In this document: positions 1,210 to 38,563 of the stretch, piece after piece | How positions within the stretch are numbered: position 1 is the stretch's first letter | Layout: each line of letters opens with the position of its first letter | Source of the DNA: Sphingomonas sp. 28-66-16 | GTDB lineage: Bacteria; Pseudomonadota; Alphaproteobacteria; Sphingomonadales; Sphingomonadaceae | DNA: 64,000 nt | NCBI GenBank assembly: GCA_002281485.1 | Contig: NCGF01000014.1 | Location: 1 to 64,000 of the forward strand | Reading direction: 5' to 3' | The notes under the pieces: model-generated | What the model saw: only the letters and a program-made list of their open reading frames with translations | Told to the model about the DNA's origin: nothing | The model's database searches: none | Made by a program: the position numbers and the translations under genes

Positions 1210-3673
<2,464 letters not shown>

Positions 3674-5769: not shown

Positions 5770-6942
5770 ATGCGTTTGCTGCTGGCCTTTCTTGCGCTCT
5801 TTCTGGTCGCGGCGCTGCCGTTGCCGGGGACATCATCGTCGACGCTGGCGCCCGATACCGAGGCCCGCTGGGTGCCGTTCGATCTGACCCCGGGCAACCA
5901 GATCCGGTTCGACCTGACGATCGACGGGCGGCCGGCGGTGGCGATTCTCGACACCGGCGTCAGCGCCTCGGTCGTCTCGCGCGCCTTTGCCGCAAATGCC
6001 CGGTTGCGGGTGCAGCCGCGCGGCAGCGCGACCGCGATCGGCGGGGCAGTTGCGATCGGCTGGACGACGACGCACGATATCGCCTTTGGCGGGCTCGTCA
6101 GGCGCGGCGGTGGCCTGACCGTCACCAGCCTGCCCGCCAGCGCGACGTTGAGCGACCGTCCGGTCGACATGCTGGTCGGGCATGATCTGATCGATGGCTA
6201 TGCCCTCGACATCGACTATGCCGCATCGCGTTTTCGCCTGCTGCCTTCGGGACGGCTGCCGTTTCGCGGTGCCAGCGCCCCGCTGGCGGTGTCGCCTGAA
6301 CAGAATCTCTACGTCACCCAGCTGACCCTTGGCGGTCGCCGGCTGCAACCGGTGGTGGTCGATACCGGCGACGGTTCGTCGATCACGCTGTCGCAGCAGG
6401 CATGGCGTTCGACCCGGCTGGCGCCGATGCCGATGACGACGACGATCGCCTATGGCATCGGCGGCGCGCAAATCACCGAGCTCGCGATCGTCGACGCGCT
6501 GTCGGTCGGCCGGCTGGGAGCCGAAAAGGTCGAGCTGCGGATCGAACCGAATGGCGGCTTTTCGCAATCGATCGGCGCGGCGGGGCGGATCGGTTCGGGT
6601 TTTCTCCAGCGTTACCGCGTGCTGATCGATCCGGGCGCCGGCCACATCGTGTTCAGCGAGCCGACGCAGCCCGAGGCAGGGCCGCTGCGATCGACCAGCG
6701 GTATCCTCGCCCGCACCGAAAAGGATCGGCTGCGGGTGCTCCACGTGATGCGCGGCAGCCCCGCCGAGAGCGGCGGCTGGCGCAGCGGCGAGACGATCTG
6801 TTCGATCGACGGCACCGCGATCGGATCGAGCTATGCAACGAGTCGCGCGGCGGGATGGTCGGTCGATCGCCCCGGCAGGGTCGTCGCGCTCGGCCTGTGC
6901 GACGGGGTCACCCGCCGCCTGACACTCCAGCGATTCTATTGA
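5770..6942 (+). CDS. Exported pepsin/retropepsin-like aspartyl protease with PDZ-like tail
   Basis: Probable exported aspartyl protease. An N-terminal hydrophobic signal (MRLLLAFLALFLVAALPLPG) is followed by two half-domains, each with an active-site style motif: ILDTGVSAS with Asp61, and VVDTGDGSS with Asp198. The spacing of about 137 residues fits a two-lobed single-chain enzyme such as the bacterial aspartyl protease families with a retropepsin-like fold. The last ~90 residues (RVLHVMRGSPAESGGWRSGE, then TICSIDG) look like a PDZ domain. Total length is 390 residues. The substrate is unknown. It lies 87 bases after cpaF, perhaps under its own promoter. Confidence 0.78.
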   Translation: MRLLLAFLALFLVAALPLPGTSSSTLAPDTEARWVPFDLTPGNQIRFDLTIDGRPAVAILDTGVSASVVSRAFAANARLRVQPRGSATAIGGAVAIGWTTTHDIAFGGLVRRGGGLTVTSLPASATLSDRPVDMLVGHDLIDGYALDIDYAASRFRLLPSGRLPFRGASAPLAVSPEQNLYVTQLTLGGRRLQPVVVDTGDGSSITLSQQAWRSTRLAPMPMTTTIAYGIGGAQITELAIVDALSVGRLGAEKVELRIEPNGGFSQSIGAAGRIGSGFLQRYRVLIDPGAGHIVFSEPTQPEAGPLRSTSGILARTEKDRLRVLHVMRGSPAESGGWRSGETICSIDGTAIGSSYATSRAAGWSVDRPGRVVALGLCDGVTRRLTLQRFY

Positions 6943-28696: not shown

Positions 28697-29629
28697 TCAG
28701 CGCAGCTCGAACGGCCGCACGCCCTTGCCGAGCTGGTTCGCGCCCACCGCCAACCGATCGTGGCTGACGTCGGCGACGAAGGCCGGGCTGTGGGTCTGGC
28801 CGGGGGCGAGCGTCGCGACATTGGCTTCGACGCGCAGGCCCGTCGCGGGATATTTGCGCTGCTCGGCCGAGACGACGATGAATCCCGTCCAATTCTCCTT
28901 GTCGGGGCCCTGGACGAAGGTGTTGCGCGCGATCAGCCCGGTTGCGCCTTCGGGCAGATCGATCATGTAATTGGTCTTGTGCCCGCTCGTGTCGTCGAAG
29001 CTGTTGTCGGTGATCGACACGTTGGGGACGCGCAGCTTGACATAATGGCCGCCGCGCCCGCGCTCGAAGCGCGAATTGGTGATCGTCACCTTGCCCTGGC
29101 TGGCGAGATACACCGAATGCGCGCAATCGGGGGTTTCGTCGCACTGACCGAGCCCGGCGAAGGTCGAGCGATCGATCGTCACTACCTGCGCGCCCGAGGT
29201 GCCGCCGAGGATGCCCTCCTGGCTATCGAGGAACATCGCGTTGCGCACCGTGAGATCGCCGATCTCGATGCGGATGCCGGCGCCATTGCCGTCGCCGACG
29301 CGGATGTTGCGGAAGATGATCCCGTCGACCACCGATCCCTCGCCGCGCAGCACCAGCGCCGCCTTGCCCTCGCAGGCGACGCCGTCGAAGATCACGCTGC
29401 CCGGCTGGACCGCCTTGAAAGTGATGTGCCCTGCCTGCTGGATCGCGCACTGGCGATAGGTGCCCGGCGCGATCAGGATCGTCGCATCGCGCCCGCGGAC
29501 CGACATCAGCGCGTCGTCGAGCTGGGCAAAGCCCTGCCCGGTTTCCTGGACGGTGAAGGGCGCGCGCACATTCTGCGCGGCGGCGGGCACGGTGAGCGCC
29601 AGGGCGACGATCGGTAGGGCGAAACGCAT
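28697..29629 (-). CDS. Exported right-handed parallel beta-helix protein
   Basis: A 310-residue exported protein (signal MRFALPIVALALTVPAAAQ) built of short repeated strands typical of right-handed beta-helices, as in pectate lyases and NosD-like proteins. Recognisable rungs include ILIAPGTYRQCAIQ, ITFKAVQPGSVIFDGVAC, IIFRNIRVGDGNGAGIRIE, VTITNSRFERG and VSITDNSFDDTSG. The APGTY segment near the first rung is a common feature of the family. No lyase catalytic residues can be assigned with confidence. It may bind or cleave a polysaccharide. It is divergent from an RSL-like lectin gene 131 bases away. Confidence 0.75.
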   Translation of the reverse strand: MRFALPIVALALTVPAAAQNVRAPFTVQETGQGFAQLDDALMSVRGRDATILIAPGTYRQCAIQQAGHITFKAVQPGSVIFDGVACEGKAALVLRGEGSVVDGIIFRNIRVGDGNGAGIRIEIGDLTVRNAMFLDSQEGILGGTSGAQVVTIDRSTFAGLGQCDETPDCAHSVYLASQGKVTITNSRFERGRGGHYVKLRVPNVSITDNSFDDTSGHKTNYMIDLPEGATGLIARNTFVQGPDKENWTGFIVVSAEQRKYPATGLRVEANVATLAPGQTHSPAFVADVSHDRLAVGANQLGKGVRPFELR

Positions 29630-29760
29630 CGGGCAGGCCTCCAGAGATAGCCCCAGATGCGCGCCAATTGCGCGTGTGTGAAGGCTAATTGAGGGTTAAC
29701 AATCGCGCGTCGATCGCGACCGATCGACCCGATGCGCGCGCCCCGATCCGGAGAATTCGA

Positions 29761-30060
29761 ATGGCCGAAGACAATGCCGCCTTCCCCATCACCACCGCGG
29801 CGGTGAACTGGTATGATGGCAGCGGGCAGTTGCATATCCGGGTCTATTCGAGCGACGGCTATACCGTCACCGAGCGCTGCGCCGACGGCCAGGGCTGGAC
29901 CGACGGCGCGTTCAAGCAGCCGGGATCGCAGGTATCGGCGACGGCATGGACCGCATCGGACGGCGCCCATATCCGCGTCTATTGCACCGCCAACGACGGC
30001 ACCACCGAATGGTGCGCCGACCCCGACACCGCCTGGACCAAGGGCAGTTATACGGATTAG
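29761..30060 (+). CDS. Two-repeat fucose-lectin-like protein (RSL type)
   Basis: A 99-residue protein made of two similar blades: HIRVYSSDGYTVTERCADGQ continuing to GWTDGAF, and HIRVYCTANDGTTEWCADPD continuing to TAWTKGSY. This is the pattern of RSL, the fucose-binding lectin of Ralstonia solanacearum, whose trimer forms a six-bladed propeller related to the fungal AAL family. RSL residues Arg17, Glu28 and Ala40 (site one) and Arg62 and Glu73 (site two) correspond to Arg27, Glu38, Ala50, Arg72 and Glu83. The second Trp of each blade is kept (Trp46, Trp92), but the Trp after Cys is Ala in both (Ala41, Ala86). No signal peptide is seen. The ATG at 29761 gives the RSL-like length. Confidence 0.88.
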   Translation: MAEDNAAFPITTAAVNWYDGSGQLHIRVYSSDGYTVTERCADGQGWTDGAFKQPGSQVSATAWTASDGAHIRVYCTANDGTTEWCADPDTAWTKGSYTD

Positions 30061-30340: not shown

Positions 30341-30718
30341 TCAGGCCGCTCGGGCGTACCGAGCCGTCTGGCAAAACACCAAGATGCACACCTTCATCTC
30401 GACGACGCGCGGCGACATTAACCGAAGCGTCGCGGGCAATAGCCGCTTTCCGTCGTGATAAGTGCCACGCCAACGATTGGGCCCGTCGAGCGTGATGTCA
30501 GACAACACGATTCCGTCGTCGACTCGTCCTGGCTGGCCATTGGCCCTGCGGGCAAGGCCGGTGGCACAGAGTCGCGCAGGCCCCTGGTTGCAGGGCTCGA
30601 TTCGGGCGGCACCGGGCCCGTTAATCTCGGTCCAGATGCCGAGCAACGGGGAGTGACTGGTCATCGGCACGGCATCGCTCAGAGCCGCCGTCATCAGCAT
30701 CAACTTGGAAATCCACAT
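30341..30718 (-). CDS. DUF2147-like secreted protein
   Basis: A 125-residue protein with a short hydrophobic N-terminus (MWISKLMLMTAALSDAVP). The layout resembles DUF2147 proteins, which have an early GxW motif (GIWTEINGPGAARIEPC), a central ILSDI-like strand (GIVLSDITLDGPNRWRGTYH) and a C-terminal Cys-rich end (VVEMKVCILVFCQTARY). Function of the family is unknown. The AAAGGAA before ATG supports the start. It is 48 bases downstream of the second desaturase gene on the same strand. The 280 bases to its left (30061-30340) show no gene. Confidence 0.6.
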   Translation of the reverse strand: MWISKLMLMTAALSDAVPMTSHSPLLGIWTEINGPGAARIEPCNQGPARLCATGLARRANGQPGRVDDGIVLSDITLDGPNRWRGTYHDGKRLLPATLRLMSPRVVEMKVCILVFCQTARYARAA

Positions 30719-32842: not shown

Positions 32843-35446
32843 TCAATCGAGGTTCGGGCGCAGCCAGCGCTCCGCCGTCGCCAGATCGACGCCGCGCCGC
32901 GCAGCATAATCGGCGACCTGATCGGGCCCGATCCGGGCCACGCCGAAATATTCGGCTTGCGGGTGGCCGAAGTAGAAGCCGCTGACGGCGGCGGTCGGCA
33001 GCATCGCGAAGCTCTCGGTGAGCGACACGCCGGTCGCATGGTGCGCGTCGAGCAGTTTGAACAGGATCGGCTTGAGGCTGTGATCGGGGCAGGCCGGATA
33101 GCCCGGCGCAGGGCGGATGCCGAAATATTGCTCCTTGATCAGCGCCTCGGTCGTCAATTGCTCGTGCTCGGCATAGCCCCAGAGCGCGGTGCGGACATAT
33201 TTGTGGAGCCGCTCGGCAAAGGCTTCGGCAAAGCGATCGGCGAGCGCCTTGAGCAGGATATCCGAATAATCGTCCATGCCCGCCTTGAAGCGCGCCAGAT
33301 GCGGTTCGATGCCGTGGATGCTGACCGCAAAGCCGCCGATCCAGTCGCCGTCGGGGCTCACGAAATCGGCGAGGCACATGCTCGCCTTGCCCTCGCGCTT
33401 GGCGATCTGCTGGCGCAGGAACGGCAGGCGGACGTGATCCTCATTGTCGAGATGAATGACGACATCGTCGCCCTCGCGCGCGCACGGCCATAACCCGCAC
33501 ACGCCGCGCGCGGTCAGCCATTTTTCGTCGATGATCCTGTCGAGCATCTTCTGCGCATCGGCGAACAGGCTCGACGCGCTTTCGCCGACGACCGGATCGG
33601 TGAGGATCGCGGGGTAGTTGCCCGCGAGTTCCCACGCGCGGAAAAAGGGCGTCCAGTCGAAATACTGGCTGAGATCGCGCAGATCCCAATCGGGAAAGCG
33701 GTGGACGCCGGGCAGGATCGGGCGCGGCGGCTTCAGCCGCATATCGGCTTCGAAGGCGTTGTCGCGCGCGGCCTCGAGCGACAGCAGCGCGTTCTGCGGC
33801 TTGCCAGCCCGGGCGGCGCGGACGGCTTCATATTCATCGGCGGTCTTCTGGACGAACTCGTCGCGGATCGTGTCGCTGACGAGCGTCGAAGCGACGCCGA
33901 CCGCGCGGCTGGCGTCGAGGACATGGACGACGGGCCCGTCATAGGCGGGCGCGATGCGCAGCGCCGTGTGGACCTTCGAGGTCGTCGCGCCGCCGATCAG
34001 CAGCGGCATCGTCATGCCGGCGCGCTTCATCTCCTCGGCCACCGTCACCATCTCGTCGAGCGAGGGGGTGATCAGGCCGCTGAGGCCGATCATGTCGGCG
34101 TCATTCTCGTTGGCGGCCTTCAGGATATCCGACCAGGGCACCATCACCCCCATGTCGACGACGTCGAAGCCGTTGCACTGGAGCACGACGCCGACGATGT
34201 TCTTGCCGATATCATGGACGTCGCCCTTGACCGTCGCCATGATGATCTTGCCCTTGCCGCGCGCGCCGGGCTCCTTTGCCGCCTCGATATAGGGGAGCAG
34301 ATGCGCGACCGCCTTTTTCATCACGCGCGCCGATTTGACGACCTGCGGGAGAAACATCTTGCCCGAACCGAACAGGTCGCCGACGACGTTCATCCCGTCC
34401 ATCAGCGGGCCTTCGATCACCTCGATCGGGCGCGCGTGATTCTGGCGGGCTTCCTCGGTATCGTCGACGACGTACATGTCGATGCCCTTGACGAGAGCAT
34501 GTTCGAGCCGCTTGTTGACCGGCCAGCCGCGCCACTCCTCGGCGGCCTTTTCGGCGACGGCATCGGTGCCCCGGAATTTCTCGGCTAGCGTGATGAGGTT
34601 GTCGGTCGCGTCGTCGCGGCGGTCCCAGATGACGTCCTCGCATGCTTCGCGCAGCGCCGGGTCGATGTCGTCATAGATGTCGAGCTGGCCGGCATTGACG
34701 ATCGCCATGTCGAGACCGGCGGGGATCGCATGATAGAGGAACACGCTGTGCATCGCGCGGCGGACGGGCTCGTTGCCGCGGAACGAGAAGCTCAGGTTCG
34801 ACAAGCCGCCTGAGATATGGACGTGCGGGCACCGCGCCTTGATCTCGCGGCACGCCTCGATGAAATCGATCGCGTAGCGGCGATGCTCGTCGATCCCGGT
34901 CGCGACCGCGAAGATGTTGGGATCGAAGATGATGTCTTCGGGCGGGAAGCCGATGCCGGTGAGCAGCTTGTAGGCGCGCTCGCAAATCTCGACCTTGCGC
35001 GCCTTGGTGTCGGCCTGGCCGACCTCGTCGAACGCCATCACGACGACGGCGGCGCCGTACGCCATCACCTTGCGCGCCTGGTCGAGGAACTGCGCCTCGC
35101 CTTCCTTCATGCTGATCGAATTGACGATCGGCTTGCCGCTGACGCATTTCAGCCCGGCCTCGATGACCGACCATTTCGACGAATCGATCATGAACGGGAT
35201 GCGCGCGATATCGGGTTCGGCGGCGATCAGCTTCAGGAAGGTCGTCATCGCGTGGTGCGCGTCGAGCAGCCCCTCGTCCATGTTGACGTCGAGGATCTGT
35301 GCGCCGTTCTCGACCTGCTGGCGGGCGACCTCGACGGCGCGCGGATAATCGCCCGCCATGATCAGCTTCTTGAACGCGGCCGAACCGGTGACGTTGGTGC
35401 GTTCGCCGATATTGACGAAATTGGTGGAGGCGGGAGTGGAAGCCAA
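32843..35446 (-). CDS. metH: Methionine synthase, folate/cobalamin/activation part
   Basis: C-terminal two-thirds of cobalamin-dependent methionine synthase as a separate 867-residue protein. In order it has the methyltetrahydrofolate-binding barrel ([45 protein letters not shown]). The B12-binding module follows with the [11 protein letters not shown] motif near residue 412 and [11 protein letters not shown], then the SAM-binding reactivation domain with [15 protein letters not shown]. The homocysteine-binding domain is missing and is encoded by the gene just upstream (35551-36600). Two-gene MetH is usual in sphingomonads as I recall. It is likely the last gene of the sahR-metF-metH operon. 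Confidence 0.94.
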
Positions 35447-36647: not shown

Positions 36648-37595
36648 TTAGGCCGCCGCGACGGCCGGTGCCGCTGCGGGCTTCGCCCGCAAGCCGAGCA
36701 AATGGCAGATCGCAAAACTCAGCTCGGCCCGGTTGAGCGTGTAGAAATGGAAATGGCGCACGCCGCCGGCATAAAGCTTGCGGCACATCTCGGCCGCGAG
36801 CGTGGCGGCAACGAGCTGACGCGCCGGGGGATGATCGTCGAGGCCCTCGAACAGGCGGTCCATCCACGCCGGAATCTCCGCACCGCACATCCCGGCGAAC
36901 TTGCGCGTCTGGGCGACGTTGGAGACCGGCAGGATCCCGGGCACGATTTCGGCACCGATTCCGGCGGCCGCGGCGCGATCCCGAAACCGGAAATAGGCTT
37001 CGGGTGAAAAGAAGAACTGGGTGATCGCCCGGTTGGCGCCGGCATCCATCTTGCGCTTGAGGTTGTCGATATCGGCGACCGCATCGGCAGAATCGGGATG
37101 AAGCTCGGGATAGGCCGCCACCGATATCTCGAACGGGTGAAGCTTGCGCAGGCCGGCGACCAGCGCGGCGGCATTCTCATAGCCTGCCGGGTGCGGGACG
37201 AAGCGCGCGCCGGCGACCGGCGGATCGCCGCGCAGCGCGACGATGTGGCGCACGCCTGCCTGCCAATAGGCATCGGCGACGGCATCGATCTCGTCGCGGC
37301 TCGCATCGACGCAGGTCAGATGCGCCGCCGCCGCCATGCTGGTCTCGCGCTGGATCCGCGCGACACTCGCGTGGGTCCGCTCGCGAGTCGAGCCCCCGGC
37401 GCCATAAGTGACCGACACGAAGCGCGGGCCCAGCGGCTCGAGCGTCTTGATCGCTTCCCACAGCGCCTCTTCCATCTTCTCGGTCTTGGGCGGGAAAAAT
37501 TCGAAGCTGACGACCGAATCGCCGGCGAGATCCGCAAACAAGGGGGCTTCGAGCGCACGGCGCGCCTCTTCGAGCTGCGAAACAGAAATCATCAT
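36648..37595 (-). CDS. metF: Methylenetetrahydrofolate reductase
   Basis: Reduces 5,10-methylene-THF to 5-methyl-THF, the methyl donor for MetH. The 315-residue flavoprotein barrel shows SFEFFPPKTEKMEEALWEAI, VSVTYGAGGSTRERT, AHLTCVDASRDEI, HIVALRGDPP and ITQFFFSPEAYFRF, all standard for the family. Its ATG at 37595 overlaps the stop of the upstream regulator gene as ATGA, indicating translational coupling; an ATG one codon later (37592) is an alternative. With the split metH genes it makes a complete homocysteine-remethylation operon. Confidence 0.95.
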   Translation of the reverse strand: MMISVSQLEEARRALEAPLFADLAGDSVVSFEFFPPKTEKMEEALWEAIKTLEPLGPRFVSVTYGAGGSTRERTHASVARIQRETSMAAAAHLTCVDASRDEIDAVADAYWQAGVRHIVALRGDPPVAGARFVPHPAGYENAAALVAGLRKLHPFEISVAAYPELHPDSADAVADIDNLKRKMDAGANRAITQFFFSPEAYFRFRDRAAAAGIGAEIVPGILPVSNVAQTRKFAGMCGAEIPAWMDRLFEGLDDHPPARQLVAATLAAEMCRKLYAGGVRHFHFYTLNRAELSFAICHLLGLRAKPAAAPAVAAA

Positions 37596-38563
37596 GCCGC
37601 CTTCACCTTCTGATCGATATCGTCTTGTCCTGCGCCGAGCTTGCGGCCGAGCCACAGCTTGACCGTCAGCGCACTGCCTTCGAGGGTTTCGATCCGCGCC
37701 GGGGCGAGCCCCGCCGCCTCGAACCAGCCGATCACCTGCTCATCCGAAAAGCCGAGCCTGGTATGGGCATCGCGCGCGCGCAATTCTTCGCGATCATGCG
37801 GCGCGAAATCGGCGATCAGCAGCCTGCCGCCGCGATCGAGCACGCGCGCCGCCTCTGCGATCGCTGCGCCGGGCTGTTGCGCGAAGTGGAGGACATGATG
37901 GAGGATCGCCGCATCGGCGGCGCCATCGGCCATCGGCAGCGCATAGAGATCGGCCTGGCGAAGTTCGGTGCGTTCGAGTCCGCGCTCGGCGAGCTTGGCG
38001 CGCGCAAGGCGGAGCATTTCCGAGCTTCGATCGATCCCGAGCGACTGCGCCGCCTGGGGACCGAACAATTCGAGCATCCGTCCCGTGCCCGTGCCGATAT
38101 CGATCAGCTGACCGATCGGCGAATCGCCGAGCACGCGCTTCATCGCGGCTTCGACCTCGCTCTCGGCGACATGCAACGACCGGATTGCGTCCCACTGGCC
38201 GGCATTGGCCTCGAACCAGGCGTTGGCGGCTGCCGCGCGATCGGCCCGCACCGCCGCGAGCCGCGCAGCATCGGCGACGGTCCAATGATCCGACTCACGG
38301 GTCACCCACGCTTCGAACGCCGCGAGCACCGGCGCCACCAACGCGCCGTCGCCGAGCGCCACGAACACCCAGCTGCCCTCCTTGCGGCGCTCGGCAAGCC
38401 CGGCATCGCACAGGATCTTGACGTGGCGCGAGACGCGGGGCTGGCTTTGGCCGAGCACCTGCGCCAGTTCGCCGACCGAGAGCTCCATCGACTGGAGCAG
38501 CGCCATGATCCGCAATCGGGTCGCATCGGCGAGCGCGCGAAATATTTCCAGGGCCAGGTTCAT
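37592..38563 (-). CDS. ArsR-family regulator fused to a methyltransferase domain (SahR-like)
   Basis: A 323-residue fusion. Residues ~1-90 form an ArsR winged helix (FRALADATRLRIMALLQSME, LSVGELAQVLGQSQPRVSRH, VKILCDAGLAERRKEGSWVF), without the metal-binding cysteines of ArsR or SmtB. Residues ~130-310 form a class I methyltransferase fold (LIDIGTGTGRMLELFGP, AAILHHVLHFAQQPG, RLLIADFAPHDRE). This architecture and the metF/metH context match SahR, described as an S-adenosylhomocysteine-responsive repressor of methionine-cycle genes in proteobacteria. The fold would then bind SAH as a signal rather than catalyse. A perfect palindrome lies 10 bases upstream of its start, so autoregulation is likely. 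Confidence 0.85.
   Translation of the reverse strand: MNLALEIFRALADATRLRIMALLQSMELSVGELAQVLGQSQPRVSRHVKILCDAGLAERRKEGSWVFVALGDGALVAPVLAAFEAWVTRESDHWTVADAARLAAVRADRAAAANAWFEANAGQWDAIRSLHVAESEVEAAMKRVLGDSPIGQLIDIGTGTGRMLELFGPQAAQSLGIDRSSEMLRLARAKLAERGLERTELRQADLYALPMADGAADAAILHHVLHFAQQPGAAIAEAARVLDRGGRLLIADFAPHDREELRARDAHTRLGFSDEQVIGWFEAAGLAPARIETLEGSALTVKLWLGRKLGAGQDDIDQKVKAA

Follow-up and report, generated by a model that had tools for sequence, protein, structure and literature searches.

A two-blade RSL-type lectin of Sphingomonas with alanine at both stacking-tryptophan positions, from a clade in which these positions vary

The 64,000-nucleotide stretch analyzed here (hereafter, the window: positions 1 to 64,000 of contig NCGF01000014.1, forward strand, in assembly GCA_002281485.1 of Sphingomonas sp. 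28-66-16) encodes a 99-amino-acid (aa) lectin of a known family, typified by RSL of Ralstonia solanacearum and BambL of Burkholderia ambifaria, whose sugar site has been remodeled across the sphingomonad members. The most notable side of this lectin, as read from the aligned sequences, is an aromatic platform that varies across the clade above a nearly fixed triad of polar sugar contacts; in the window protein, both platform positions are occupied by alanine.

Membership in the RSL-type family is secure by both sequence and fold. The 99-aa frame, which begins with ATG, matches RSL and BambL chains at E values of 2e-21 to 6e-20 (HMMER), the Pfam profile Fungal_lectin at 43.7 bits (cutoff, 25.3), and the NCBIfam profile NF052355 (Ralst_lectin) at 136.7 bits (curated cutoff, 100), spanning positions 1 to 86 of the 86 in that profile. 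The pair of beta-propeller blades that characterizes the family, within a chain of ~90 residues, can be recognized: blade 1 contains IRVY (residues 26 to 29), TERCAD (37 to 42), and W46, and blade 2 contains IRVY (71 to 74), TEWCAD (82 to 87), and W92. The two halves of the protein align with a local score of 63, against a maximum of 52 in 1,000 shuffles, and the predicted monomer, compared as a single chain with VIA-align, has the RSL-type fold. A preliminary description of this stretch had proposed the two-blade form IRVY...TE(R/W)C-A-D...W and an RSL-type family, and both proposals are borne out by these profile matches and by the fold.

In HMMER alignments, Ala41 and Ala86 stand opposite RSL Trp31 and Trp76, which belong to the intermolecular and intramolecular sites, respectively (PMC3466270), and the Arg/Glu/Trp hydrogen-bonding triad is kept in both sites (R27/E38/W92 and R72/E83/W46), just as the preliminary description had read them. 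Both alanine codons are GCC, three base changes away from TGG, so neither residue represents a one-base error. Furthermore, RSL Arg17, Glu28, Trp81, Ala40, Pro14, and Ile59 map to Arg27, Glu38, Trp92, Ala50, Leu24, and Ala69; in RSL, the first three form hydrogen bonds to fucose O3, O4, and O5, the main chain of Ala40 binds O2, and Pro14 and Ile59 contact the fucose methyl group (PMC3466270). High-affinity fucose sites are marked by a stacking aromatic: Trp or Tyr occupies each present site of AAL, AFL, RSL, and BambL in the available tabulation (23 sites including symmetry copies, with an RSL row that mixes native and engineered proteins; PMC5726637). As judged by this residue, which is alanine in both of its sites, the window protein is not among the high-affinity fucose lectins.

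We aligned the window protein with its sphingomonad relatives in 26 rows (24 distinct Sphingomonas proteins plus 2 from other genera), leaving out of all counts G1188 (whose frame is identical to that of G1187), a relict copy in G182, and a match with an internal stop in G528. Arg72, Glu83, Trp46, and Trp92 occur in all 26 rows, Glu38 in 24, and Arg27 in 21. Trp is present at position 41 in 4 rows and at position 86 in none, such that no row has both and 22 have neither; Phe or Tyr occupies position 86 in 10 rows, and in 15 rows neither position is aromatic. The Ala/Ala combination is unique to the window, and other pairs at 41/86 include A/F, M/F, W/F, T/M, N/S, A/S, N/N, N/A, D/Y, I/Y, A/Q, A/N, T/F, and W/S. 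The gene is not a one-off: intact copies exist in 25 of 295 Sphingomonas genomes, and every aligned row lacks at least one of the two tryptophans.

Positions 86 and 41 rank as the fifth and seventh most variable of 88 columns by entropy, and residue 69 (at RSL Ile59) ranks second. In column tests that are descriptive, given that the rows are related and that rim positions were picked via literature mapping, random column pairs were as variable as 41 and 86 with a frequency of 0.011 (0.021 among the 61 tested columns without a hydrophobic consensus), random columns reached the conservation of the triad with a frequency of 0.0004, and the addition of rim positions 24, 69, 50, and 96 (methyl, O2) to the variability test yielded a frequency of 0.0004; position 24 itself is conserved, with 25 of 26 rows carrying Leu or Ile. 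On a lectin tree from which columns 41 and 86 were omitted (many forks are weak, 13 of the 24 inner branches having values under 80; the tree also includes Burkholderia arboris, which stands outside the 26-row counts), these two columns require 11 and 12 changes, compared with a median of 4 for the 89 columns. Ratios of nonsynonymous to synonymous substitution (dN/dS), obtained by a crude pairwise counting method and at high dS, range from 0.22 to 0.90 (median, 0.41) between the window sequence and its 25 relatives and from 0.03 to 0.32 in the closest pairs (e.g., G154/G1166, G192/G1189, and G1174/G1187), with other listed pairs at up to 0.63. These ratios fit purifying selection of moderate strength on the lectin overall.

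We consider it probable, with some reservation, that the window protein is a trimeric RSL-type propeller that has kept the triad and lost the platform, that it binds fucose weakly, and that it holds glycans either by multivalency or by accepting another or a substituted sugar. The lectin would be made in the cytosol as a two-blade chain, and assembly into trimers, most likely here in view of the family, would create a propeller of six blades that bears six shallow sugar sites. Each site would retain the polar contacts that in RSL hold the sugar O3, O4, and O5 and would be without the aromatic residue beneath the apolar face of fucose. Because that platform is gone, each site is expected to bind plain fucose with an affinity between high micromolar and millimolar. 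In RSL, the engineered W31A/W76A double mutant had its fucose affinity reduced to 926 μM, although affinity chromatography still served to purify it, whereas in W31A or W76A alone the remaining site bound with submicromolar to micromolar affinity and a stoichiometry of one (PMC3466270). By analogy with this reported behavior, the altered affinity anticipated in the preliminary description would be a lowered affinity for fucose. A near-invariant triad, dN/dS values below 1, and strongly variable stacking positions together suggest that a glycan is probably still bound, be it through multivalent weak sites or through a different or substituted sugar that fills the opened pocket; as such, weak fucose binding, or binding of a different sugar, is probable for the window protein. 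Its role may lie in attachment or biofilm formation, as has been described for Ralstonia LecF (RSL), which alters attachment and biofilm behavior and whose mutants change attachment (PMC11449490).

A more tentative extension, for which we hold appreciably less than even confidence, is that the RSL pocket has been turned into a diversifying recognition site: the triad would grip a common diol, and the platform (41 and 86) and rim (50, 69, and 96) would shift between species, allowing different or substituted sugars to be read. If so, loss of the platform would also admit ligands with a second ring or a substituent against the apolar face of the sugar; in BambL, the equivalent stacking residue, Trp74, is reported to exclude the compact Lewis conformation (PMC3747263).

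Several observations weigh against a weak-binding or retargeted lectin. Columns in exposed surface loops are variable in any case, and dN/dS values against the window sequence suggest only moderate constraint. Arg27 is replaced by His in 5 rows (L011, L051, L052, L053, and L020), a further type of substitution affecting the intramolecular site, and two of these rows (L051 and L052) additionally have Gln in place of Glu38, which fits decay of that site in part of the clade. In addition, no hydrophobic signal is seen in the N-terminal sequence letters, and neither a signal peptide nor a secretion gene was found for the window lectin, which gives it no evident route to a glycan outside the cell. 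RSL and BambL are likewise not known to have a signal peptide.

The His27 and Gln38 rows would also be expected under relaxed constraint, in which sphingomonad lectins are losing sugar binding, their stacking positions are drifting, and the gene itself is being lost. Such a course could account for the patchy presence of the gene (25 intact copies among 295 genomes and, in G182, a relict at this locus) and for the moderate dN/dS values against the window, of up to 0.90; the near loss of fucose binding in engineered RSL W31A/W76A (PMC3466270) speaks for it as well. However, all 25 frames are intact, the closest pairs show dN/dS of 0.03 to 0.32, and the variability of the triad, four of whose residues are fixed in every row, is significantly below that of random columns; we consider this explanation unlikely. 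A propeller scaffold reused for a structural or protein-binding role and devoid of sugar binding is, in our view, very improbable: nothing positive beyond the platform loss itself speaks for this, and the polar sugar contacts are near-invariant.

Alternatively, the protein could be an ordinary fucose lectin with micromolar affinity in which another residue or a moved loop substitutes for the Trp platform. Simulated RSL W76A showed closure of its 76-81 loop over fucose and a new hydrogen bond made by Asn79 (PMC3466270); the matching loop here has one additional residue (DPDT versus DGN), Leu24, at the methyl-touching RSL Pro14, is Leu or Ile in nearly all rows, and Phe or Tyr stands at position 86 in 10 of the 26 rows. 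But the same loop gave no rescue in the RSL double mutant (926 μM; PMC3466270), the tabulated AAL, AFL, RSL, and BambL sites all carry Trp or Tyr (PMC5726637), and residue 69, at the other methyl contact, is the second most variable of all columns. We view retention of ordinary fucose binding as quite doubtful.

The possibility that the ligand is made by the cell itself yielded tests that are either negative or confounded by ancestry. For fucose, gmd (TIGR01472) scored over its cutoff in 9 of 25 genomes with the lectin and 12 of 25 without it (P = 0.57), showing no association, and in the window's genome (86% complete) no gmd passed the cutoff. For rhamnose, rmlC (TIGR01221) over its cutoff was rarer in lectin-bearing genomes, both in a hand-picked set (6 of 25 versus 21 of 25; P = 4e-5) and in the whole genus set (6 of 25 versus 159 of 270; P = 0.0012); the metH tree, however, provides only four independent pairs, which show no rmlC trend, and we dropped this association as evidence.

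Matches at an E value of ≤0.001 occur in 26 of the 295 Sphingomonas genomes (Sphingomonas gei ZFGT-11 among them), comprising the 25 intact frames, including that of the window, and the relict in G182 (L058, G182:C1, ~1501-1566, minus strand), a truncated lectin with an in-frame TAA. Two further genera of the family (G265 and G402, in a 249-genome sample) carry the lectin, the class sample contains it in 1 of 337 genomes (the window's own), and the phylum sample contains it in 3 of 398 (the window, G139, and the weak match in G528, at an E value of 7e-4), so that neither of these two samples contributes a firm further case. Each of the 26 aligned rows has a Ralst_lectin match at an E value of ≤0.01.

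For the most part, the lectin has a fixed genomic location: in 23 of the 25 Sphingomonas genomes, a metH match lies convergent to it and at most 2.8 kb away (16 to 241 bp in 19 of the 23), and the relict is likewise just past metH. This synteny indicates long residence in the genus and counts against a recent date for the horizontal transfer raised by the preliminary description, a candidate history that we reject. We also searched for carriage by mobile elements: there was no match among 50,697 phage records and no relative in three viral contig scans, and the single match among 72,556 plasmid records was on a 3.5-Mb replicon of Burkholderia arboris; phage and plasmid carriage were rejected. 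Mapped onto a metH tree with 65 rows from the genus, lectin presence requires six changes, and the 20 metH downstream stretches from lectin-less genomes contain no lectin remnant (best chance match, E = 0.013). The pattern is better explained by an ancient gene that kept its position and was lost several times, or by joint exchange of the gene and the metH region, than by recent acquisition; at an earlier time, the gene may have come from outside the family. No metH cluster member surrounds the lectin in G265 and G402, as far as a crude gene caller detects, and G1189, represented by only a short stretch, is not among the 23. In L031 (G192:C48), the nearby metH match (5925-6086) is a C-terminal piece (residues 814-867), with a full metH on contig C98, and in L033 (G074:C105), the lectin adjoins metF, with no metH match within the 15 kb examined.

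The interval between the lectin and metH contains, in the window, a gene for a fatty-acid hydroxylase, an AraC-type regulator, and an orphan open reading frame (ORF). An EcfG-type promoter pattern occurs in none of 26 upstream stretches. Divergent from the lectin is a right-handed beta-helix protein (28697-29629, minus strand; Pfam Beta_helix), a homologue of which is also near the lectin in G078 and G192. A 125-aa ORF at 30341-30718 (minus strand) has no Pfam match at an E value of ≤0.001 and no NCBIfam match at an E value of ≤0.01. Coordinates of the main features are given in Table 1.

Table 1. Features of the lectin gene and its conserved locus in the window (fractions are alignment rows)
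Feature	Position	Strand	Basis
GGAG, likely ribosome-binding site, 7 nt 5' of ATG	29750..29753	+	sequence; inference
Lectin gene, RSL/BambL-type two-blade, 99 aa	29761..30060	+	sequence, profile matches, fold
Arg27 codon (RSL Arg17), intramolecular site; Arg 21/26, His 5/26	29839..29841	+	alignment
Glu38 codon (RSL Glu28); Glu 24/26, Gln 2/26	29872..29874	+	alignment
Ala41 codon GCC at RSL stacking Trp31, intermolecular site; variability rank 7th of 88 columns	29881..29883	+	alignment
Trp46 codon, second Trp of blade 1; 26/26	29896..29898	+	alignment
Arg72 codon, blade 2; 26/26	29974..29976	+	alignment
Glu83 codon, blade 2; 26/26	30007..30009	+	alignment
Ala86 codon GCC at RSL stacking Trp76, intramolecular site; variability rank 5th of 88 columns	30016..30018	+	alignment
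Trp92 codon (RSL Trp81); 26/26	30034..30036	+	alignment
metH (B12-dependent methionine synthase), convergent syntenic neighbor, 2.8 kb from lectin	32843..35446	-	sequence match, synteny
metF (MTHFR family), same conserved locus	36648..37655	-	sequence match, synteny

In the RSL family, the energy of fucose binding is attributed chiefly to the aromatic platform, with the dispersion part put at 7 to 8 kcal/mol by the authors of the mutant study (PMC3466270), and in the window protein the double-alanine change appears to have arisen naturally with the protein retained. The natural set of sphingomonad pairs (A/A, N/S, N/N, T/M, A/F, M/F, and W/F) would serve to test whether a multivalent propeller can bind through the triad by itself and whether another ligand has been adopted. 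For these members, the automatic label "fucose-binding lectin" (NF052355) may name the wrong ligand. Our literature search, beyond whose reach most subscription papers lie, returned no paper on such a Sphingomonas lectin or its variable platform.

Compared with RSL (LecF; PDB 2bt9, 2bs5, and 4i6s), the window lectin has an Ala pair in place of the stacking Trp pair, ~9 extra N-terminal residues, a turn before Arg27 that is longer by three residues, and the one-residue extension of the loop after Cys85. The trimer and fucose binding of RSL, which has also been crystallized with a xyloglucan fragment (PDB 2bs6), are experimentally established, whereas for the window lectin the trimer is expected from the family and fucose binding is predicted to be weak. 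BambL (PDB 3zw0 and 3zw1), unlike the window lectin, has an aromatic residue in both site types (Trp and Tyr), and the fungal AAL and AFL/FleA (Pfam PF07938) have six blades per chain, with Trp or Tyr at each tabulated site, in contrast to two blades and Ala here (PMC5726637). Engineered RSL W31A/W76A (Wimmerova et al. 2012; PMC3466270) bears the identical pair of substitutions at the aligned positions; it is, however, a laboratory construct in which the rest of RSL is unchanged, whereas in the window lectin the rim differs too.
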